A stretch of 34,132 bases of DNA from a virus, in IMG/VR virus record IMGVR_UViG_3300010885_001099, positions 1-34,132 of that record; one strand, given 5' to 3'. The translations under genes and the position numbers were made by a program. The notes below the pieces were generated by a model. It made no database searches. It was not told the DNA's origin and saw only the letters and a list, made by a program, of their open reading frames with translations. The stretch's first letter is position 1, and every line of letters starts with the position of its first letter. Shown piece by piece: positions 10,071-29,883 of the stretch.

Positions 10071-11144
10071 ATGAAGATAGCTGTTTACGCCATAAGTAAA
10101 AACGAAGAACAATTCGTAGACCGTTTTTGTGAATCAGCGACTGACGCTGATTTGATATTGATCGGTGACACAGGCTCAACTGACGATACAATTAATCGTG
10201 CGTTGCAGCATACGAACGTGATAGTACAGGAGATATGTGTACGTCCTTGGCGTTTTGATATTGCTCGTGACACAGTCCTGTCTCTTATCCCCGGTGATTT
10301 TGACGTGTGTATTAGCCTAGACTTAGACGAGGTGCTAGAGCCGGGCTGGAGACAAGAAATAGAACGCGTGTGGAAAGAAAACACCACACGGCTACGCTAT
10401 AAATTTGACTGGGGCAGTGGTATTAGTTTCTTTTATGAAAAGATTCACCATCGTCATGGGTACCACTGGCACCACCCCGTCCACGAGTATCCTCGTCCAG
10501 ACGGGCGTATACAAGAAGTTTACGCTAACACAGATATGTTGCTGGTATCTCATCACCCTGACCCTAATAAAAGCCGTGGGCAGTATTTAGACCTTTTGCG
10601 GCTAGCTGTTAAGGAAGACCCACACTGTCCACGTAATGCTTTCTATTTTGCAAGGGAATTGACGTTCTACTCCAAATGGGGCGAGGCGGTAGTGGCGCTG
10701 CTAAAGTACCTAGACAACCCACAAGCTAATTGGCCGAATGAACGGTGTTACGCTATGAGGTTATTGGGCAAAGCTTATGACGCACTACAACAACCTGATG
10801 AAGCGTTAGAGTGGTATAGAAAAGCTTGTGGTGAGGCTCCTTCTACTAGAGAACCGTGGCATGATTGGTCGTTAGCGTTGTATAATAGAAAAGACTGGGC
10901 AGCGTGTTTAACAGCTGCGGAGAAGGGGTTAGCAATCAAGGATAAACAACTAGTTTATACCTGCGACCCACGAGTCTGGGAAGAACCTTTATATGACTTA
11001 GCTTCCATCGCTGCGTGGAATCTAGGATTAAAAGACGAAGCTCTTGCGTATTGCGAAACAGCAGCTAAAATGGCCCCAGAGGACGCTAGGATTGCGGCCA
11101 ATCTTAAAATGATGTCATTGGAGTTAGAGAATGCCAGCACCTAA
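10071..11144 (+). CDS. Family 2 glycosyltransferase with TPR-like C-terminal half
   Basis: A 357-residue protein. The N-terminal 110 residues are a GT-A fold: SKNEE (9-13), the nucleotide-binding GDTGSTDDT (32-40) and a metal-binding DLDE (84-87) acting as the DxD motif. A His-rich loop (about 126-139, HHRHGYHWHHPVHEY) follows. From about residue 190 the sequence becomes helical repeats of TPR type (AMRLLGKAYDALQQPDEALEWYRKAC, DWSLALYNRKDWAACLTAAEKGL). Enzymes with this architecture transfer sugars from nucleotide donors. In a phage the target could be a virion protein, host surface glycan or DNA base, and nothing here decides which. It lies three bases after the lysozyme gene. Confidence 0.85.
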   Translation: MKIAVYAISKNEEQFVDRFCESATDADLILIGDTGSTDDTINRALQHTNVIVQEICVRPWRFDIARDTVLSLIPGDFDVCISLDLDEVLEPGWRQEIERVWKENTTRLRYKFDWGSGISFFYEKIHHRHGYHWHHPVHEYPRPDGRIQEVYANTDMLLVSHHPDPNKSRGQYLDLLRLAVKEDPHCPRNAFYFARELTFYSKWGEAVVALLKYLDNPQANWPNERCYAMRLLGKAYDALQQPDEALEWYRKACGEAPSTREPWHDWSLALYNRKDWAACLTAAEKGLAIKDKQLVYTCDPRVWEEPLYDLASIAAWNLGLKDEALAYCETAAKMAPEDARIAANLKMMSLELENAST

Positions 11145-21042: not shown

Positions 21043-24000
21043 ATGGACCCAATTCGTCGCCCACCATGGGAAGTTAGTTCTGGTAACGACTTCCCTTCAA
21101 TAGACCCACGAGATCAGTACCAACGGGATTTAATTCGTTTGCAGATGATTGAGCGTGACCGGAGCGACGCAGAAGCAAACGGTAGGCCAGATTTAGCTGC
21201 AGCCGCGCAAAGAGAAATGAATGCGGTTAGAAAACAAATGGGTGGCGCAACTGCTGCCTTACCTGCGGAACAAGGACCTCTTCGCGCACCTCCTTGGGAA
21301 CAGCAACAAGCCGCGCCTAGTCGTGGTTCGTATGACTTCCCATTACCTAGTGAAATGATAGGAAAACAATCGTCTGATGGTTTCTTCCGTCGTTCATTGG
21401 ACATCCCTACAAAATTCGCAGCAGGTATACCTAGTGCTATTTCTTCTGCAGTTGGGCTTGTTGGCGCGGCAGTTCCTTGGGCGCGTGGTGCTGCTGACCC
21501 TCTAGCTGAGTTATTTTCCGAGTCCGCGCAAGCAATTAACAAGAACTTTTTATCTGATTACCAGCAACAAAAGGAACAAGAACTTGCTAAACGCCTAGCT
21601 GCCAACCCGGGGTTTTTTGAAGGCGCTGGCGAAGGTTTTAAATTTCTTGGGGAACATCCACTATACGCAGTACCTTCGCTTGCTGAGTCAATCCCCTCTA
21701 TGTTAGCTGGTGGTTATCTTGGGCGTGGGCTACAAGTAGGTGCTCGTGGCCTTGGTTACAGAATGCCAGCTAGTACTGCTGGTGCGCTTGGTGAAGGCGG
21801 CATGATTACTGGTAGTGTCGGCACAGACATTGCCCGCCAAGACCCTGAAGCATCACGTGTTCCTGCTTTCCTTGCTGGTGCTGGTGGCGCGGTTGTGGGT
21901 AAGTATGGTGCTCGGCTAATGGGCGGCGCTGATATTGAATCTGCTATTGCAGGTAGATTAGCTCGTGGCGAAGCAGCAGATATTCTCTCCTCTGCAGGGA
22001 CTGCTGGTGGTAGGTTTGTTCGTGGTGTTGTCGGTGAAGGTTTCTTAGAAGAAGCACCGCAGTCTGTCATGGAGCGCATGGCTACTAACTACTCTAGTGG
22101 TCGTCCTATTATGGAAGGCACTGGTGGTGAAGCAGTAATAGGTGCAGCTTCTGGCGCAATGATGGGTGGTGGTTTTGGTCTTCGTCGTCCAAGCAATACG
22201 TACACGCCTGATGAATTAAAAGCTAGCCTAAAAGTAATGGCTGACCCAAGATCGGTTCCTGAAGATGCTGTCGCAGCTGCAGACTTTGTACGCCGTGTTG
22301 AGACTGGCACTTTAGGTGAAGCAGAGGCCAATAAGAGGTTTAATGATTATCTGAATGATGTATTTGGTTCCAAAGTCGAACCCGGTGGTGAATCATTCGA
22401 TATGCTTAAAGACACGAACAGATCGCCAAAAGAAATTATGGCGGAGCTTCGTCGTTCCGCTAACGATCCTAATGAGCCATCTGTGTGGCGTTTCCCTGTG
22501 TCTACTGGCTTAGAAGGTAGCCAACGCGGAATGTTTGCCGCTGGCCCAGAAGCGTTTAATCAACCACGCCCTGTCACGGGTGAGTTGGGCAGCAATCAAC
22601 AAGCCGCATTAGGCGGTACTGCACCATTAGGTGCTGGGCAGATTGCTGCTATGGCGGGTCCAGTAGATCAGAATGCACCTCGCCCAGCTACGGGGTTAGG
22701 ACCAGCGCAACAAATTGCTGCTGGCGGTCCTGAAGCGTTAACTTCTGCGGGTACACCTGTACAACAAACAGTTCCTTCGGGTGGTGCGACCACCACCGTT
22801 CCCTCGAGTGCGCCAGCCGCACCGGGGGCTTTTTCTTCTGATCCAACGCCTCCATCACCTGCCGGTGTAACCATAATGGATGGCAATAATACTAGGGTAA
22901 TTGGCGAAGCAAGGGCTAATGAACTTGCAGCTGACCGAAATAAAGCAACAGGTACCGCCGCCACTCCTGCGGCTAAAACGACTAAGACTACCCCTAAAGT
23001 TTCCGCGCCCAAAAAGACAACCATTGCTCGTTCAATAGAACAGGCACTTGATGAGGAAATGGAAGTAGCGGACACAGCTTTAGATAACGCTCGCGCCAAG
23101 AAAATTATGGCGGACGTTAATAGCGAAGACCTCGGTGCAGAAGTTCAAGGCGCTAAACAAATCAAAGCCCCCGGTCGTGTGTCGTTATCTCAGCGTTCGC
23201 TCTTAGGCATTCGTGATGCCATTTTCCGCAAGTCGGGCAAAGTGGCTAAAGCTTTTGGTAAAAAAGAACAAAAAGTTGTTGATGCTGTTAGTGAATTTAC
23301 TAATGCTTATAATGCGTACCTTAATTTTAGTACGAATATAGCTGATGAATTAAAACAAGCAAAAGGTACTGACGCCGCAGCTGGTAGACGTATACCTAAA
23401 CTAGAAGATAGAGCTAAGGATGTTCAGAATGCTCTGTTCAACTTGGGGCAATCATTAGACAACAACGCTAAGAATGTTGAGGCAATTGTTCGTGTTGTTA
23501 AAGATACAGTCCAGCAGAAGTTAGCCAAGCCGGGCAAGACAAAGAAAGAAACGCTGGAGGCAATGACGTCGTTAGATACTGTGTTGTCTTCTGGTTGGGC
23601 CGCTGCGAAACGCGAAACGTTTATGTCCGAGCTGCCTGACTTAGCTGATGTTAGTGGGCAAACAATACGCCAATCCACAGAGCAACAAGTAAAAGGTAAC
23701 ACTACTTCTAAGCTAGAAAAGGCAGCTAAAGACGGTTATGGTAATCCAAAAGGTACTGCAGAAAAAGAATTCGGGCTAATAGGAGTACTGCAGTACCTGC
23801 GTTTTAACACTACACCTATGGGCAAAGTTCTTGCTCGTATGCTGCGCGACGCGTTGCAACAGTCTGTAAACCCCGCAAAAGTAGTATTCACCGATAAAGT
23901 CGGCTCCCGCTACGTCCCAAAGACGAACACGGTCTATATTAATAGGGGCGAACAGTCAGCTGAAGTTGTGCTGCACGAAACTTTCCACGCCGCATTGCAG

Positions 24001-27000
24001 TGGTATGTGTACCAGAATCCTAGCGCACCAGCTGTTAAGCAACTGGAGTTGTCACTTAAACGCGCACTAGAAGCAAAGGGATTGCAAGGTAAGGCGTTGG
24101 AAGTTCAGAACATCCTCCAAAATTTAGTCAACAACGAACGTGGTCTAGACGCTGTGTTGGAGTTGGTTTCGTACACCGCCACGCTTAATGAGTTCCGTCG
24201 TGCAATGCAGGAAATTAAAACTGGCGACGCGCCCAAGTCGTTCTTGGAGTCAGTAAAAGCTGTATGGGCGATGTACAAAGCGATTGTCCGTAGGCTATTG
24301 GGTTCTAACGACACTGTAGCTAGCGATGTTCTTTCTGCGTCTATGCAACTGTTGGAAGAGTCTACTACAGCTACGATGCCAGCAAAGTTAGAAGGTAAAC
24401 CACTACCAGCCGTTGTGCAGTCTAACAAAGCCACACAAAGCGCGGCTGGTATTACCGCGCAGGATTATCGTGGCTACACCAAACGAATCGCACCAGCTGC
24501 TATAAGCACTAAGGCATTCTTCGATGTTGTTGGCTGGAACGAGAACGTAGCTAAGAAGTTTACTCAGACAACTAGCAAAATGGCTGAAGCAATCCGTAAG
24601 GATTTTCCTTCACTTGAGCGGTTCCTTATCTATGTCAACTCTCGTTTCAGTGCTGGTGCAATGACTAGCCAAGAGATTGAGAATTACAAAGTAAATAAGA
24701 GTGTCGGCTATCAGCAGATGGAGCGTTTGGCAAACTTTGTCACTAACCGTTCTGCTACTGAAATCCGTGCTTTGTTCGACTACATGGACGGCAACAAGAA
24801 AGCATTGGATGGCCTCGCAGATAAAGGCGTTATGACCCGCACAGCGGATAACGTCATGGAGTGGTTCAAGACCTACGTTGCTGATCTCCCTGCTGCAGAG
24901 CGTTCATTCTTCACCACCCGTAAGTTCTCTGAGTCATTGCTGTATGCGTCGAAGAGCGCACAGGTAGCTAGCAGCACATTCGGTGCTCGTAAGTTATCCA
25001 AAGTCCTTGGGCTAAAGCACGAAAGCGAAAATACGCTCGAAGGTTTTATGGACTGGCTAGAAAAAGATGGAAACGGTGACGTTGTTTTAGACGGCAGATT
25101 CTACGAAGTATTTAAGAACGACGGTTTGCGCCCCGGCGATGGCCCAGAACACGCTGGTTATATGTCTGTCTCTGAGTTTGAGAAGCGTGGTCGTAAAGCA
25201 CCTGATGGCTACCAAGTAGACGCCACTAGAGAGTGGTGGATGTCGCAGTACGACCCAGATCGCGGCTATAAGTTCTCATCCAGTATGACCGCTAAACAGG
25301 CTATACAGGAAAACAAAGTAGATGATTTAGCTAATGCTATGCGTAACACCATGGCGGCGCTTGCAAATAACTATGCAAGTAGGCAGTTCTCGAAAGCTTT
25401 GGCTGCAGATAAGTCAATTGCGTTTGACAGTCTGGAAGATATTAAAGCGTTTTCTGGACAGGTTATTGATGAAGCTTTGGTTCTTAAAGTAAGCCAAGAA
25501 GAATCCAAGTCTCCACAAATTAGTAGTCTATATAGAAACTCTGGTACTTGGGTGAAGCTGCCTGACTCTGCAGCCTATGGTGACTTAGCTAATAAGTACA
25601 TCCCCGGCCCTGTGTGGAGTGCGATGACCGACATGGCTGATCGTAGGCCATTAGTTGAGTTTGGACTATATAACGACATAATGCGTTGGTTTAAGAAGTC
25701 CAAGACGGTATACAACCCCGGTACTCACATAACTAACGTAGCGTCGAACATTACACTAGCCATGATGCACGACATTCCTATGTCAACTCTAGGAAAAGCT
25801 GCACGTGTCTTTGCGTTATTTGAAACCAATCCTAAAGCGCTGACAGATACAGAACTAGACATGATGTCTTCGTTCATAAACTCAGGTGCTATGCTAGGTG
25901 ACTTCTCCAGTGCTGAAGTTAAGAAAGCTCTATACGATGCTTGGAAAGACAACATGGCACCAGCGAACGACAACTCGCTGATGAAACGTCTTGCCGCATT
26001 TACGAACTATGAAAAGTCTAAGGCACAGAAAGCAGTTGAGATAGCTACTAAGATAGGTAAAAAAGCCGATCACTATGCTACAGAACTTTATGCGGCAGAA
26101 GATAATATTTTCCGGCTTGCCGCTTTCTTGACCAAAGCCGGTGACTTGCAAGCACGAGATAAGACTAGCGCCGCAACACCTGAACAGTTGCGCGAGGCAG
26201 GTGACTTTGCTCGTAAAGCCTTTTTGGACTACGACATTGATTCCAAAGCAGTACGTGTTCTTCGCCAGTCAATGATCCCATTTATTTCGTGGGGTTACGC
26301 TGTCGCACCAGTACTAGGTCGTATCGCTTTGCATCAGCCTTGGAAGATAGCCAATATCGTAATGGCTTACTACTTGCTGGATATAGCAATGGCTAGCATG
26401 GGTGGTGGCGACGACGATGAACTACGCGAAAAAGGTCCTGAGTATATGCGGGAACGTATGTTCTTCGGTAACTTCGGCCCTCGCATGTATATCCGCATTC
26501 CTTTCATGGGCGACGCAGAAAATCCTGTGTACTACAAGCTAGGCGACTACGTACCATTTGCATCCATAACCAAAGGGTTGCCTAACGGTTTGTTCGGACA
26601 GTCGTGGATTCCTAGTGTGGTTACGCCAAGCGGCCCATTCGTATCTGCTGTAGCTGGGTTGCTACTTGGTGTTGATCCATACACCGGCAAAGATATTCAT
26701 AAGCCTACAGATTCAGAGTGGGACAAGTTATTCAACTCCGCTACGTTTGCTTATGACACAGCGATGCCTTCTATGGTATCAAGCAAAAATATAAGCAAAG
26801 TAAAAGATATTATTGATGAAAAAGAAGGTATCACTGGCGTGAAACCTAGTAATCTTGTTATGGCTAGGATGTTGGGCTTTAAGTTGTATGATTACAATGT
26901 CGATGAATCTATGGCTATCCAAGACAAAGTAGTCAAAGGCATTGAAAAAGATTTCAAAGCCGCGATGACTAGAGCTAAGAAAGAGGAGTACCGCAAAGGC

Positions 27001-27102
27001 TACCCTGACTACGAGGCGCTCGACAAAGAGCTAGAAGTTCTGCGTGAGCGCATGGAAAAACGTGTCGCCGAAGTTCGCGGCGGCGAGGAGGAAGAGGAAT
27101 AA
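21043..27102 (+). CDS. Giant ejection protein with zincin HExxH motif and LPD38-like C-terminus
   Basis: A 2019-residue protein, the largest in the window, in the position of T7 gp16. Residues about 125-150 hold a hydrophobic stretch (FAAGIPSAISSAVGLVGAAVPWA). A Pro/Ala/Gly-rich linker spans about 480-660. A zinc-protease signature, VVLHETFHAALQW, puts H978, E979 and H982 in place, preceded by the strand YVPKTNTVYINRG usual in zincins. The C-terminal third has TVYNPGTHITNVASNI, LRQSMIPFISWGYA and a membrane-like helix near 1769-1786. It resembles the large polyvalent protein domain LPD38. It is probably injected with the DNA and may cleave host proteins. The protease role is inferred from the motif. 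Confidence 0.8.
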   Translation: MDPIRRPPWEVSSGNDFPSIDPRDQYQRDLIRLQMIERDRSDAEANGRPDLAAAAQREMNAVRKQMGGATAALPAEQGPLRAPPWEQQQAAPSRGSYDFPLPSEMIGKQSSDGFFRRSLDIPTKFAAGIPSAISSAVGLVGAAVPWARGAADPLAELFSESAQAINKNFLSDYQQQKEQELAKRLAANPGFFEGAGEGFKFLGEHPLYAVPSLAESIPSMLAGGYLGRGLQVGARGLGYRMPASTAGALGEGGMITGSVGTDIARQDPEASRVPAFLAGAGGAVVGKYGARLMGGADIESAIAGRLARGEAADILSSAGTAGGRFVRGVVGEGFLEEAPQSVMERMATNYSSGRPIMEGTGGEAVIGAASGAMMGGGFGLRRPSNTYTPDELKASLKVMADPRSVPEDAVAAADFVRRVETGTLGEAEANKRFNDYLNDVFGSKVEPGGESFDMLKDTNRSPKEIMAELRRSANDPNEPSVWRFPVSTGLEGSQRGMFAAGPEAFNQPRPVTGELGSNQQAALGGTAPLGAGQIAAMAGPVDQNAPRPATGLGPAQQIAAGGPEALTSAGTPVQQTVPSGGATTTVPSSAPAAPGAFSSDPTPPSPAGVTIMDGNNTRVIGEARANELAADRNKATGTAATPAAKTTKTTPKVSAPKKTTIARSIEQALDEEMEVADTALDNARAKKIMADVNSEDLGAEVQGAKQIKAPGRVSLSQRSLLGIRDAIFRKSGKVAKAFGKKEQKVVDAVSEFTNAYNAYLNFSTNIADELKQAKGTDAAAGRRIPKLEDRAKDVQNALFNLGQSLDNNAKNVEAIVRVVKDTVQQKLAKPGKTKKETLEAMTSLDTVLSSGWAAAKRETFMSELPDLADVSGQTIRQSTEQQVKGNTTSKLEKAAKDGYGNPKGTAEKEFGLIGVLQYLRFNTTPMGKVLARMLRDALQQSVNPAKVVFTDKVGSRYVPKTNTVYINRGEQSAEVVLHETFHAALQWYVYQNPSAPAVKQLELSLKRALEAKGLQGKALEVQNILQNLVNNERGLDAVLELVSYTATLNEFRRAMQEIKTGDAPKSFLESVKAVWAMYKAIVRRLLGSNDTVASDVLSASMQLLEESTTATMPAKLEGKPLPAVVQSNKATQSAAGITAQDYRGYTKRIAPAAISTKAFFDVVGWNENVAKKFTQTTSKMAEAIRKDFPSLERFLIYVNSRFSAGAMTSQEIENYKVNKSVGYQQMERLANFVTNRSATEIRALFDYMDGNKKALDGLADKGVMTRTADNVMEWFKTYVADLPAAERSFFTTRKFSESLLYASKSAQVASSTFGARKLSKVLGLKHESENTLEGFMDWLEKDGNGDVVLDGRFYEVFKNDGLRPGDGPEHAGYMSVSEFEKRGRKAPDGYQVDATREWWMSQYDPDRGYKFSSSMTAKQAIQENKVDDLANAMRNTMAALANNYASRQFSKALAADKSIAFDSLEDIKAFSGQVIDEALVLKVSQEESKSPQISSLYRNSGTWVKLPDSAAYGDLANKYIPGPVWSAMTDMADRRPLVEFGLYNDIMRWFKKSKTVYNPGTHITNVASNITLAMMHDIPMSTLGKAARVFALFETNPKALTDTELDMMSSFINSGAMLGDFSSAEVKKALYDAWKDNMAPANDNSLMKRLAAFTNYEKSKAQKAVEIATKIGKKADHYATELYAAEDNIFRLAAFLTKAGDLQARDKTSAATPEQLREAGDFARKAFLDYDIDSKAVRVLRQSMIPFISWGYAVAPVLGRIALHQPWKIANIVMAYYLLDIAMASMGGGDDDELREKGPEYMRERMFFGNFGPRMYIRIPFMGDAENPVYYKLGDYVPFASITKGLPNGLFGQSWIPSVVTPSGPFVSAVAGLLLGVDPYTGKDIHKPTDSEWDKLFNSATFAYDTAMPSMVSSKNISKVKDIIDEKEGITGVKPSNLVMARMLGFKLYDYNVDESMAIQDKVVKGIEKDFKAAMTRAKKEEYRKGYPDYEALDKELEVLRERMEKRVAEVRGGEEEEE

Positions 27103-27350
27103 TGGCTAAGTCACCAGCATGGCAACGCAAGGAAGGCAAAGACCCTGAAGGGGGTCTTAACGCCAAGGGCAGAGCAAGCTACAATAAGGCAACAGGTGGT
27201 AATCTCAAAGCCCCACAGCCTGAAGGTGGCAAGCGTAGAGACTCGTTCTGTGCCCGTATGGAAGGCATGAAGAAGAAACTTACCTCTTCTAAAACTGCTA
27301 ACGATCCGAACAGCCGCATCAATAAATCTCTCAGAGCATGGAAGTGCTGA
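27102..27350 (+). CDS. Conserved basic microprotein, DUF6321-like
   Basis: An 82-residue protein starting at the last base of the giant gene's stop codon. The opening MAKSPAWQRKEGKDPEGGLNAKGRASYNKATGGNLKAP, followed by RRDSFCARMEGMKKK and a short ending RINKSLRAWKC, matches the DUF6321 pattern widespread in phages of aquatic bacteria. It is strongly basic and hydrophilic, consistent with nucleic-acid binding or packing inside the virion. The biochemical role is not known. Confidence 0.78.
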   Translation: MAKSPAWQRKEGKDPEGGLNAKGRASYNKATGGNLKAPQPEGGKRRDSFCARMEGMKKKLTSSKTANDPNSRINKSLRAWKC

Positions 27351-27351
27351 T

Positions 27352-27510
27352 ATGAAAAAACAAGTATGGGAAACGCCTCGTCCCAAAGAGCTAGGCAAGC
27401 CAAAGAAACTAACACCTTCGCAGAAGACGACGGCGAAGGCCGCAGCAAAGAAAGCAGGTCGTCCTTACCCAAATCTCGTGGATAACATGAGAGCAGCTAG
27501 AAAGAAATAA
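27352..27510 (+). CDS. Lys/Ala-rich basic microprotein
   Basis: A 52-residue protein: MKKQVWETPRPKELGKPKKLTP, then QKTTAKAAAKKAGRPYPNLVDNMRAARKK. It starts one base after the previous stop and ends one base before the next gene's ATG. Very basic with no acidic cluster, it resembles small conserved phage proteins carrying the AGRPYPNLVDN motif. It could bind DNA or a virion protein. The function is unknown. Confidence 0.65.
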   Translation: MKKQVWETPRPKELGKPKKLTPSQKTTAKAAAKKAGRPYPNLVDNMRAARKK

Positions 27511-27511
27511 T

Positions 27512-27688
27512 ATGGCCGAGAAATGGATTCAGAACGCGATAAAGAAGCCGGGGTCACTACGTGCATCGATGGGTGTTAAAAAGGGCGAAACCATCCCTGC
27601 TGGCAAATTAGCTAAAGCCGCTAAAGCGCCGGGCAAAATGGGTCAACGTGCGCGGCTTGCACAAACTTTAAAGGGGTTTAAGAAATGA
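27512..27688 (+). CDS. Conserved basic microprotein (MAEKWIQNAIKKPG type)
   Basis: A 58-residue protein: MAEKWIQNAIKKPGSLRASM, GVKKGETIPAGKLAKAAKAP, GKMGQRARLAQTLKGFKK. I recognise this as a frequent uncharacterised family in phage genomes, often next to structural genes. The motif KKGETIPAGKL, then GQRARLAQTL, is its hallmark. It is basic and probably helical. Its stop overlaps the start of the next small gene by four bases (ATGA), so the two are probably co-translated. Confidence 0.75.
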   Translation: MAEKWIQNAIKKPGSLRASMGVKKGETIPAGKLAKAAKAPGKMGQRARLAQTLKGFKK

Positions 27689-27858
27689 AAGGTATGCCAA
27701 TGCGCGGTCAACGTACTGCAAAGAACAAGATGGTTAAAGAGTATGGTGGTATGGAGAAATACCCATCTAAAACTGCCATGATGAAGCACGAGAAGGGCGA
27801 AGGCAAAAAGATGGAATCCAAAGAAAAGATGATGGCTATGAAAAAGGGCAAGAAGTAA
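27685..27858 (+). CDS. Met/Lys-rich microprotein
   Basis: A 57-residue protein, MKGMPMRGQRTAKNKMVKEYGGMEKYPSKTAMMKHEKGEG, then KKMESKEKMMAMKKGKK. It has many Met and Lys residues and a YGGMEKY.SK.AMMKHEK core seen in other phage microproteins. It is the last gene of the rightward late run, before the terminator at 27889. The function is unknown. Confidence 0.65.
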   Translation: MKGMPMRGQRTAKNKMVKEYGGMEKYPSKTAMMKHEKGEGKKMESKEKMMAMKKGKK

Positions 27859-28008: not shown

Positions 28009-28968
28009 ATGGCGACAAAAATTACAGACGAAGAGTTTTTGGGTTTGTGGAGAAAGTACGGCAGCGTTAATGAAATTGCTAAAGTTACTGGGCTAACCCT
28101 TCGAGGCGTTAACACAAGACGGCGTAAATTAGAAGAAAAGATTGGTGAAAAACTATTAGGCGTTAGCCCTAAAAGTCCAGATTTTAATATTACATACCCT
28201 GATAATGGTGTAAGAACTAAAGTAGATATTAAGAGCGGTGTTATTTTAGTAGCTTCAGACTGCCACTACTGGCCCGGAGTTATATCATCGGCTCATAAAG
28301 GTTTCGTAAAGCTAATAAAAGATATCAAGCCAAAAATTATTGTGCTTAACGGCGACGTTTTTGACGGCGCTACAATCTCAAGATTCCCCGCAGGAGACTG
28401 GCAAACACTCCCAAGCGTTAAGCAAGAACTCGAAGCTTGCCAAGAACGCGTCAACGAGATCGAAGCTGTTGCTGGTAACGCAAAATTAATGTGGACGTGG
28501 GGTAACCATGACCTTAGATTTAACTCAAAACTAGCAACACAAGTAGGCGACGGCTTCAAAGGTCTGCAAGGATTCAATCTCAAAGACTACTTCCCGCGTT
28601 GGAAATTCCAAACAAGCATAATGGTTAATGGTAACTTGATGATTAAGCACCGTTGGCACAACGGAATTCACGCTGTCTATAACAATATTTTAAAATCAGG
28701 GGTAAGCTTCTGTTCTGGGCACCTTCATTCCCTTAAGGTGACCCCCTTCTCAGATTATTCAGGCGCGAGGTATGGCATCGATACCGGGACCCTAGCACCA
28801 ATCTATGACGATGGTTTTAGCTATATGGAAGACTCGCCACGCAATTGGCGTAGTGGAGGTGCTGCGTTAACGATTTACAATAGCAAACTTATGCCGCCGG
28901 AGTTGTTTGAAGTGATTAATGAAGACGAAGGATTGGTTTATTTTCGTGGTGAAGTTATTAAAACGTAG
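28009..28968 (+). CDS. Calcineurin-like metallophosphoesterase with N-terminal HTH-like segment
   Basis: A 319-residue protein. Residues 1-50 look like a helix-turn-helix (FLGLWRKYGSVNEIAKVTGLTLRGVNTRRRKLEEKI). The remainder is a calcineurin-type phosphoesterase with all metal-binding motifs: D84-C-H86, GDVFD (115-119), GNHD (165-168), H214 and/or H217 in KHRWH, and GHLH (237-240). Such enzymes cut phosphoester bonds and include nucleases (Mre11/SbcD), nucleotide phosphatases and RNA-end enzymes. The HTH suggests DNA contact, so a nuclease or phosphatase acting on DNA is plausible, but the substrate is unknown. It starts its own transcription unit. Confidence 0.85.
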   Translation: MATKITDEEFLGLWRKYGSVNEIAKVTGLTLRGVNTRRRKLEEKIGEKLLGVSPKSPDFNITYPDNGVRTKVDIKSGVILVASDCHYWPGVISSAHKGFVKLIKDIKPKIIVLNGDVFDGATISRFPAGDWQTLPSVKQELEACQERVNEIEAVAGNAKLMWTWGNHDLRFNSKLATQVGDGFKGLQGFNLKDYFPRWKFQTSIMVNGNLMIKHRWHNGIHAVYNNILKSGVSFCSGHLHSLKVTPFSDYSGARYGIDTGTLAPIYDDGFSYMEDSPRNWRSGGAALTIYNSKLMPPELFEVINEDEGLVYFRGEVIKT

Positions 28969-28981
28969 GAGAATAATTATT

Positions 28982-29185
28982 ATGTCCGACTTTTTCCAAA
29001 AACAAATTGAAGCATCTGAACGTCTGTACAACATGATGATCGCAGACCACAAGCAAAGGTTTGAAATAATCGCAGAAGTTTATGGGTTAAGTGAAAGTTT
29101 GCAGAAAAAAATAAACGAACGCGACGCTGAGATAGCTACTTTACGTAGACAACTACGTGCTTATGAGGTCATGGAACGCCTGTAA
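28982..29185 (+). CDS. Coiled-coil microprotein
   Basis: A 67-residue protein. I placed the start at ATG 28982 because TAGGAGAATAATTATT gives a good ribosome site. The in-frame ATG at 28919 lies inside the previous gene. The sequence MSDFFQKQIEASERLYNMMIADHKQRFEIIAEVYGL is followed by a heptad-like helix (SLQKKINERDAEIATLRRQLRAYEVM). It may form a dimer or partner the phosphoesterase upstream, which is 13 bases away. No family is recognised. Confidence 0.65.
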   Translation: MSDFFQKQIEASERLYNMMIADHKQRFEIIAEVYGLSESLQKKINERDAEIATLRRQLRAYEVMERL

Positions 29186-29228
29186 TTGTATTTCAAATCC
29201 GTCATATTTTTAGTGTAGGATACTTTTT

Positions 29229-29252
29229 GCAGCCTGTGGGGGTTGCTTTTTT
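29229..29252 (+). terminator. Short hairpin terminator before the acidic gene
   Basis: A 6-bp stem (GCAGCC/GGTTGC, one G-T wobble) has a six-base loop and six T residues. It lies 43 bases after the coiled-coil gene and 20 bases before the start of the acidic protein, so it can end the upstream transcript or act as a leader attenuator. Confidence 0.6.
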
Positions 29253-29272
29253 ACTACTAATCGGAGCTTATC

Positions 29273-29584
29273 ATGATTGCATCTATTACCTTATTGGTTA
29301 ATGTTGAAGACTTGCTGGAAGCGTTGGACTTGGAAGTAGTTGAAGAGTTGGACGAAGAGTATGACGTTGAGTTCGATATCGACGAAGACGGCACTATTTG
29401 GTTCTACGACGAAGAGTCAGATGTTCTGTACTACTTCGACGAAGACTTACAAGATTGGGCTGAAGTCGACGAAGACGACAACGTTTGGTACGTTGATGAG
29501 TCAGGTGACGTCTATTGGTTCGATGATGAGTCAGATGACTGGGTTGAGTACGACGATTCGGAAGACTATTCCGACGAAGAGTAA
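29273..29584 (+). CDS. Extremely acidic repeat protein, candidate DNA mimic
   Basis: A 103-residue protein starting at ATG behind CGGAGC. By my count it has 25 Asp and 20 Glu (44 percent) and no Lys, Arg or His. Residues 39-65 and 68-93 are a tandem duplication: DGTIWFYDEESDVLYYFDEDLQDWAEV against DDNVWYVDE.SGDVYWFDDESDDWVEY. The pattern alternates acidic and aromatic residues in short beta hairpins, so it should fold rather than be disordered. Phage proteins of this size and charge include DNA mimics that block restriction enzymes, recombinases or nucleoid proteins (Ocr of T7 is the classic case). No sequence relation to Ocr is seen, and the function is inferred from charge alone. Confidence 0.7.
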   Translation: MIASITLLVNVEDLLEALDLEVVEELDEEYDVEFDIDEDGTIWFYDEESDVLYYFDEDLQDWAEVDEDDNVWYVDESGDVYWFDDESDDWVEYDDSEDYSDEE

Positions 29585-29594
29585 TAGCCTTTGG

Positions 29595-29639
29595 TGGGTG
29601 TACGCCGGTTTAAACGCCGGTTTACACCCATTTATTTCA
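29595..29639 (+). terminator. Hairpin between convergent units
   Basis: TGGGTGTA (29595-29602) pairs perfectly with TACACCCA (29623-29630). Inside, GCCGG pairs with CCGGT around a TTTAAACG loop. TTTATTTCAT follows on the plus strand. On the minus strand there is no T run after it, so it is a better terminator for the rightward gene. It contains two 11-base direct repeats (ACGCCGGTTTA). Confidence 0.7.
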
Positions 29640-29883
29640 TACCTGCACGTTTAGTGCGGGGGAACGAACGATTCACTGACTTAGGTACTGCGCGTAAGTT
29701 CCCGCCACCGTTACCACCGCCCTTGGCTATAGGCGTCTTATGGTCAACGTCTTTGCCGTCTCCCTTTGATACTACGCCCTTCTTCTCCATAGTTCTACGA
29801 GCGGCATTACGCTTTGTACGGTTAGCGATCTGCTCGGGCGTACCTTGATAATTAGCGTACTCCTGTTTGTAATCCCTTGGCAT
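29632..29883 (-). CDS. Small HNH-like nuclease protein
   Basis: An 83-residue basic protein starting at ATG (29883) behind GGAG. The N-terminus (MPRDYKQEYANYQGTPEQIANRTKRNAARR) is a basic helix. The HNH-like core follows: D47-H48 in KDVDHKTPIAKGG, N62 in NLRAV, and N71-R72 in SVNRS. The pattern DVDHK..GG..NLR.V..S.NRS recurs in phages, and related HNH proteins cut DNA or act with terminase. The normal Cys pairs of larger HNH domains are absent, so it may be a minimal or degenerate version. It is the last gene of the leftward unit, and the ribosome site overlaps the stop region of the primase gene. Confidence 0.75.
   Translation of the reverse strand: MPRDYKQEYANYQGTPEQIANRTKRNAARRTMEKKGVVSKGDGKDVDHKTPIAKGGGNGGGNLRAVPKSVNRSFPRTKRAGMK

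Follow-up and report, generated by a model that had tools for sequence, protein, structure and literature searches.

The window analysed here, the whole 34,132-nucleotide stretch of IMG/VR virus record IMGVR_UViG_3300010885_001099, contains at positions 29273-29584 (+) a gene encoding a 103-residue ultra-acidic protein, which we named ACID (MIASITLLVNVEDLLEALDLEVVEELDEEYDVEFDIDEDGTIWFYDEESDVLYYFDEDLQDWAEVDEDDNVWYVDESGDVYWFDDESDDWVEYDDSEDYSDEE). By direct count, the protein has 45 acidic residues (44%; 25 Asp and 20 Glu) and no Lys, Arg or His, which confirms both figures of the original prediction. It also contains 17 aromatic residues (Trp, Tyr or Phe), with a pI of about 4.05 and a charge of about -45. 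The other proteins of the window, taken as baseline, show 10.1% acidic and 10.8% basic residues; with this composition, the acidic count has a binomial probability of 1.5e-18 and the lack of any basic residue one of 7.6e-6. An overlapping out-of-frame ORF at 29340-29654 (+) was rejected as a gene, given that relatives of ACID keep the 29273 frame at low dN/dS.

ACID is located, as had been described, at the junction between the rightward and leftward units of the window. The rightward unit ends in a metallophosphoesterase (MPE) gene at 28009-28968 (+), whose product has a possible N-terminal winged-helix segment and which is the upstream neighbour in one class of ACID loci, and in a gene at 28982-29185 (+) encoding CC67, a conserved coiled-coil-like protein of 67 residues that is a frequent neighbour of ACID on either side. 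The leftward unit begins with a small gene at 29632-29883 (-), convergent with ACID, and a primase/helicase gene. The small gene encodes an 83-residue HNH-like protein that belongs to PHROG 4590, matches the Pfam HNH family with an E value of only 0.1, and is of another family than the HNH genes of most relatives. CC67 shows 14 invariant residues and, at about 43% identity, is also found ahead of a head-tail adaptor gene (L079-L083); no match to it was found in INPHARED. Four consecutive mini-proteins of 52-82 residues, each with a net charge of +12 or +13, are encoded at 27102-27858 (+), and the first of them (27102) has relatives in many aquatic phages (PHROGs 3477, 4689 and others). Upstream of them, the gene at 21043-27102 (+) encodes a protein of 2019 residues that contains an HExxH-like stretch (VVLHETFHAALQW) and is possibly an internal virion protein of several domains, and a beta-1,4-glycosyltransferase-like gene (PHROG 13126, E value 7e-95) is found within the structural region at 10071-11144 (+).

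Relatives of ACID were gathered by three scans of IMG/VR, and further ones were found beside capsid genes, giving about 50 contigs whose proteins show 29-92% identity to the window protein. The reading frame is real: the relatives retain the frame, the start codon and the acidity, and dN/dS is low, ranging between 0.07 and 0.27 for pairs with measurable divergence. Judging from these alignments, the gene is under purifying selection, and ACID represents a genuine family of small phage proteins that had no name before. In nearly all the relatives listed, acidic residues represent about 35-50% of the protein with 0-3 basic residues, down to about 30% identity. Across 27 members, D39, G40, Y45, D50, D56, D75 and W90 are invariant, and in a more diverse set of 30, full invariance is limited to D37, G40 and D56. 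No match was obtained by tblastn with ACID in INPHARED, a weak search owing to low-complexity masking of the acidic query, nor in a plasmid search with a 60-residue query based on the diverged L041 member; a scan of GTDB genomes with peptide patterns gave no confirmed relative.

The window protein consists of an N-terminal strand/helix segment (residues 1-20), an acidic linker (21-33), two beta-meander units of 28-29 residues (approximately 34-92) and an acidic tail, and a short N-terminal segment of similar kind starts the relatives. A tandem repeat of 27 residues had been proposed; the internal period is actually 28-29 residues, with spacings of 29 between W43 and W72 and of 28 between D56 and D84 and between W62 and W90, and the units are made from strand-plus-turn steps of 9-10 residues. 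Several members (L066, L072 and L059) have a single 28-29-residue unit. Furthermore, a CC67-bearing phage encodes a less acidic protein (L098, 1641-1940, +) which shares the beta unit of ACID (DDDGVIWKYDREACVWMYFDEDADEWLLFDEE) and has Lys and Arg. Because this less acidic relative exists, extreme acidity looks like a trait of the ACID family and not a requirement of the fold.

The tertiary structure was modeled with AlphaFold2 on an alignment of 27 sequences, which predicted a seven-stranded antiparallel beta meander at codons 34-92 (29372-29548, +). The best model has a mean pLDDT of 76.5 and a pTM of 0.49, and the five models span pLDDT values from 76.5 to 55.6. Block pLDDT values are 85-89 across residues 41-90, and low for residues 21-33 and the tail. 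A second run on a different, one-unit member gave a similar short meander. The core of ACID is predicted to be folded, instead of the disordered chain named in the original prediction as an outcome against it.

Family and fold searches gave no assignment. According to Pfam, no family matches ACID above its curated cut-off, the best scores being 17.6 for US22 (cut-off 35) and 13.2 for OCRE (cut-off 24.7); OCRE is listed for 11 of the 27 members with a best E value of 0.01, also below the curated cut-off. Membership of US22, OCRE (PF17780), WW and choline-binding repeat families was rejected, all of them scoring below their cut-offs. The best PDB sequence matches to the family profile, MHC class II chains with an E value of 0.25, were considered chance. 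No known mimic family appears in Pfam up to E=1 or in PHROGs above threshold, where the best match (E value 0.0088) is a family of unknown function, and the PADLOC defence families gave nothing up to E=1. Foldseek of the model against PDB and BFVD found no match at E<=0.001, and the nearest viral entries are unnamed proteins of uncultured phages, A0A6J7WIK2 among them (40% identity over 45 columns). The best VIA-align matches are single-layer beta domains: the CPAP/TCP10 G-box with a Z of 4.6 and an rmsd of 5.8 over 66 residues, OspA, and the OCRE domain of RBM10 with a Z of 2.6. The highest of these is not significant, and all lie in a range in which the likeness of the model to single-layer beta sheets may be accidental; the result does not exclude families missing from the list.

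The arrangement of ACID loci was tallied over 51 contigs, including the window, some of them near-identical. Capsid-CC67-ACID followed by a convergent HNH gene was found in 32 contigs, and three show the same order without CC67. In two contigs, CC67-ACID and the convergent HNH gene are flanked by DNA polymerase A and a large LPD38 protein. The MPE class contains five contigs with MPE-ACID, three with MPE-CC67-ACID, three with MPE-ACID-CC67, and the window itself; the remaining two contigs are truncated. A convergent HNH gene is present at every non-MPE locus with enough sequence (38 contigs), and 11 of the 12 MPE-type loci show no recognised HNH gene beside ACID.

ACID is present or absent at matching sites in related genomes, as is characteristic of morons. 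MPE-CC67 loci occur both with and without it, and the capsid-cement junction of aquatic phages of about 60 kb is either nearly empty (about 50-180 nt), or occupied by HNH or GIY-YIG genes, or by ACID and an HNH gene. Cultured relatives of these phages include Planktothrix phage Pag-Yong1, phage DSL-LC04 and Pelagibacter phage HTVC023P, and no genes of an ACID-type cassette were seen at their capsid-cement site. In contigs L101-L180 of these ~60-kb phages, the space that follows the major capsid gene is a hotspot where HNH and GIY-YIG endonuclease genes, as well as small cargo genes, insert. On comparison of these genomes, ACID behaves as an accessory cassette, since its presence is optional at several sites and often near HNH genes; this behaviour is new here.

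Homing endonucleases are associated with cargo genes in HEG-islands (PMC10448857), and SegB, a homing endonuclease, amplifies anti-defence loci (PMC13096335). The spread of ACID near homing endonucleases fits the cargo model of PMC10448857. Like morons and HEG-island cargo, ACID is found or missing at a given site in related phages and has a leader and a 3' hairpin of its own; in most loci an HNH gene is adjacent, that of the window being only HNH-like. However, HEG-islands have two flanking HNH genes where ACID has one, and unlike HEG-island cargo, ACID of the MPE class is also found without an HNH gene.

Upstream of ACID, the alignments show a promoter-like box, TGTMATAAT in the consensus of the family; its copy in the window (GTCATATT, 29201-29208, +) is weak and was not reported by a sigma-70 scan of the window. 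It is followed by a putative RNA leader (29215-29257, +) in which an outer stem, GUAG (29215-29218) with CUAC (29254-29257), surrounds an inner hairpin (29229-29246, GCAGCC...GGUUGC) with a U run after it, and by the Shine-Dalgarno GGAG of ACID (29263-29266, +), which is conserved in relatives. The order of TGTMATAAT-type box, about six bases, GTAG, hairpin, CTAC and GGAG is maintained ahead of ACID in all contexts. A covariance model (R1) trained on 17 leaders was scanned over 540,063 bases from 63 sources and gave 23 matches, 22 of which terminate at the ACID start codon. By source, six of the 28 bearing ACID have no match, and none of the 35 without ACID at the site has one; the test is not fully independent, as the window and L037 were among the sequences used to train R1 and some leaders scarcely differ from one another. 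The conservation of the leader sequence is firm.

An RNA structure of the leader is likely. Both sides of the outer stem change in diverged members, from GUAG/CUAC to CAUAG/CUAUG (L146) or AUAG/CUAU (L040). None of 500 shuffles reached the covariation observed on the R1-fitted alignment, which is biased towards structure, and 40 of 500 reached the score observed on the MAFFT alignment (A6). Folded alone, the window leader is no better than its shuffles (z -0.84), and a search of Rfam gave no match. By analogy with the base-paired 5' stem-loops that stabilise the ompA and papA mRNAs (Bouvet and Belasco; Emory et al.; listed in PMC3997798), we infer that the leader would give a stable, well translated mRNA: in both cases a paired 5' leader, predicted for ACID, stops just before a free Shine-Dalgarno sequence, although the ACID leader has no Rfam family. 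That the inner hairpin is mainly a plain terminator of CC67 was rejected, because the leader is missing where CC67 occurs without ACID, precedes ACID where there is no CC67 (L024, L030 and L138), and shows no conservation of the U run.

Downstream of the ACID stop codon, a strong hairpin at 29593-29632 (+; dG -25.2 kcal/mol, z -4.3) with a moderately U-rich tail is a probable terminator. The window cassette would therefore have a terminator of its own, as morons do; for a promoter of its own there is the conserved box and the ACID-specific leader, yet the window copy of the box is weak. In the ~60-kb phages, a GC-rich terminator is found between the capsid gene and the CC67 gene of the ACID cassette. 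A different promoter-like motif, TTGCAT-16-TATAAC, followed by a conserved CCGG-rich leader, is found at the cement gene (L018, 8655-8797, and the same region of L021, L027 and L045).

Taken together, ACID may be an autonomous accessory gene of the moron kind, passed from phage to phage and often accompanied by a homing-type HNH gene, which would be highly expressed from its own leader, with the promoter-like box, the 5' stem around the hairpin and the free Shine-Dalgarno sequence, and in the window with its own hairpin terminator. The ACID protein is predicted to be a beta meander built from one or two units of 28-29 residues whose turns are acidic, an arrangement that would set rows of carboxylates along the edges of the sheet. 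Such a folded polyanion could occupy the surface with which a basic protein binds nucleic acid, as a DNA mimic does. Candidate targets are host proteins of defence or of the nucleoid and, on the phage side, the adjacent HNH protein or the basic mini-proteins. As gp5.9 and Gam illustrate, phage proteins that are small and very acidic can be DNA mimics although their folds are unrelated (PMC9836394). ACID resembles T7 Ocr, T7 gp5.9 (pI 4.0; PMC9836394), lambda Gam and SPO1 Gp44 in being small and very acidic, and these mimics are encoded as host-takeover genes, as ACID may be. It differs from them in that gp5.9 and Gam are helical and ACID is predicted beta, in the lack of a sequence match to any of the four, and in its position among late genes.

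The proposal that ACID is a DNA-mimic candidate stands in part: the family is real and conserved, its acidity is held to about 30% identity, the gene is optional, and a protein with 44% acidic residues, no basic ones and a predicted folded core fits the class of strongly acidic folded mimics; on the other side, the sequence belongs to no known mimic family and the fold has no significant match. Mimicry of DNA by ACID is possible. In most phages the locus lies amid late or structural genes, and this weighs against a charge decoy because restriction-type DNA mimics are usually produced early. We tentatively favour ACID as a charge-based competitor or decoy for a nucleic-acid-binding protein, while giving this reading rather less than an even chance, because charge is held under divergence, the predicted sheet has acidic turns, the signals are autonomous and the gene is mobile. 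Its optional, accessory status would also suit a counter-defence factor. The full version, a new all-beta, repeat-extendable fold class of DNA mimic in which the number of units would determine how long a DNA is imitated, directed against host defence or nucleoid proteins, spread between unrelated phages with an HNH homing endonuclease and expressed from a dedicated, previously undescribed structured mRNA leader, is distinctly unlikely.

Positions beside capsid and cement genes or at the end of a late unit, with small basic proteins nearby, leave virion, chaperone and anti-HNH roles to be weighed. As a capsid-associated or chaperone-like polyanion, comparable to an acidic histone chaperone, ACID would hold basic phage proteins until packaging. 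In line with this are its location between the major capsid and cement genes in most relatives, the four mini-proteins of +12 or +13 and the HNH-like protein of +13 near ACID at -45, and the homologue of the basic 27102 protein (o27102) near ACID in many relatives. However, the capsid-cement site is elsewhere empty or occupied by unrelated endonuclease genes, so that position alone says little; cultured phages that lack ACID there (DSL-LC04 and HTVC023P) also have proteins of the o27102 type, and the window phage has ACID far from its capsid gene. We consider this role unlikely, though likelier than the two rivals that follow.

An inhibitor of the adjacent HNH endonuclease, blocking its DNA site until homing is useful as the acidic immunity proteins of HNH colicins do, would account for the convergent HNH gene in the 38 non-MPE contigs, in varied contexts and with ACID proteins differing to about 30% identity, and for the convergent HNH-like gene, of another family, in the window. 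The 11 MPE-type loci without a recognised HNH gene and the many hotspot endonucleases without an acidic neighbour argue against it, and hitch-hiking with a homing endonuclease predicts the same co-location. We consider this explanation quite improbable. Improbable as well is an aromatic beta-sheet adaptor whose Tyr/Trp faces bind a peptide, as OCRE, WW and the CPAP G-box do with proline-rich peptides, the acids serving solubility. W43, Y45, Y54, W62, W72, Y81 and W90 are invariant or nearly so, and these domains share with ACID antiparallel aromatic-rich strands with short turns and the weak profile and structural likeness reported above. Against an adaptor, every profile score is under its curated cut-off and every Z is below 8, the strand spacing is other than in those eukaryotic, less acidic domains, and solubility alone does not account for the near-total lack of Lys, Arg and His.

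ACID is a real, unnamed and mobile family of phage proteins, met in aquatic phages that are unrelated to each other and retaining a conserved leader and a single predicted sheet-like fold, for which the DNA-mimic reading is a reasonable candidate. That the near-absence of positive charge is kept while the rest of the protein diverges suggests that charge is the function. Its mobility among aquatic phages together with its own conserved leader points to a benefit that is probably independent of the phage backbone, as for counter-defence genes. The leader offers a sequence handle for locating further members of the family, and members with one or two units provide the means to ask whether the length of the polyanion tunes its activity.
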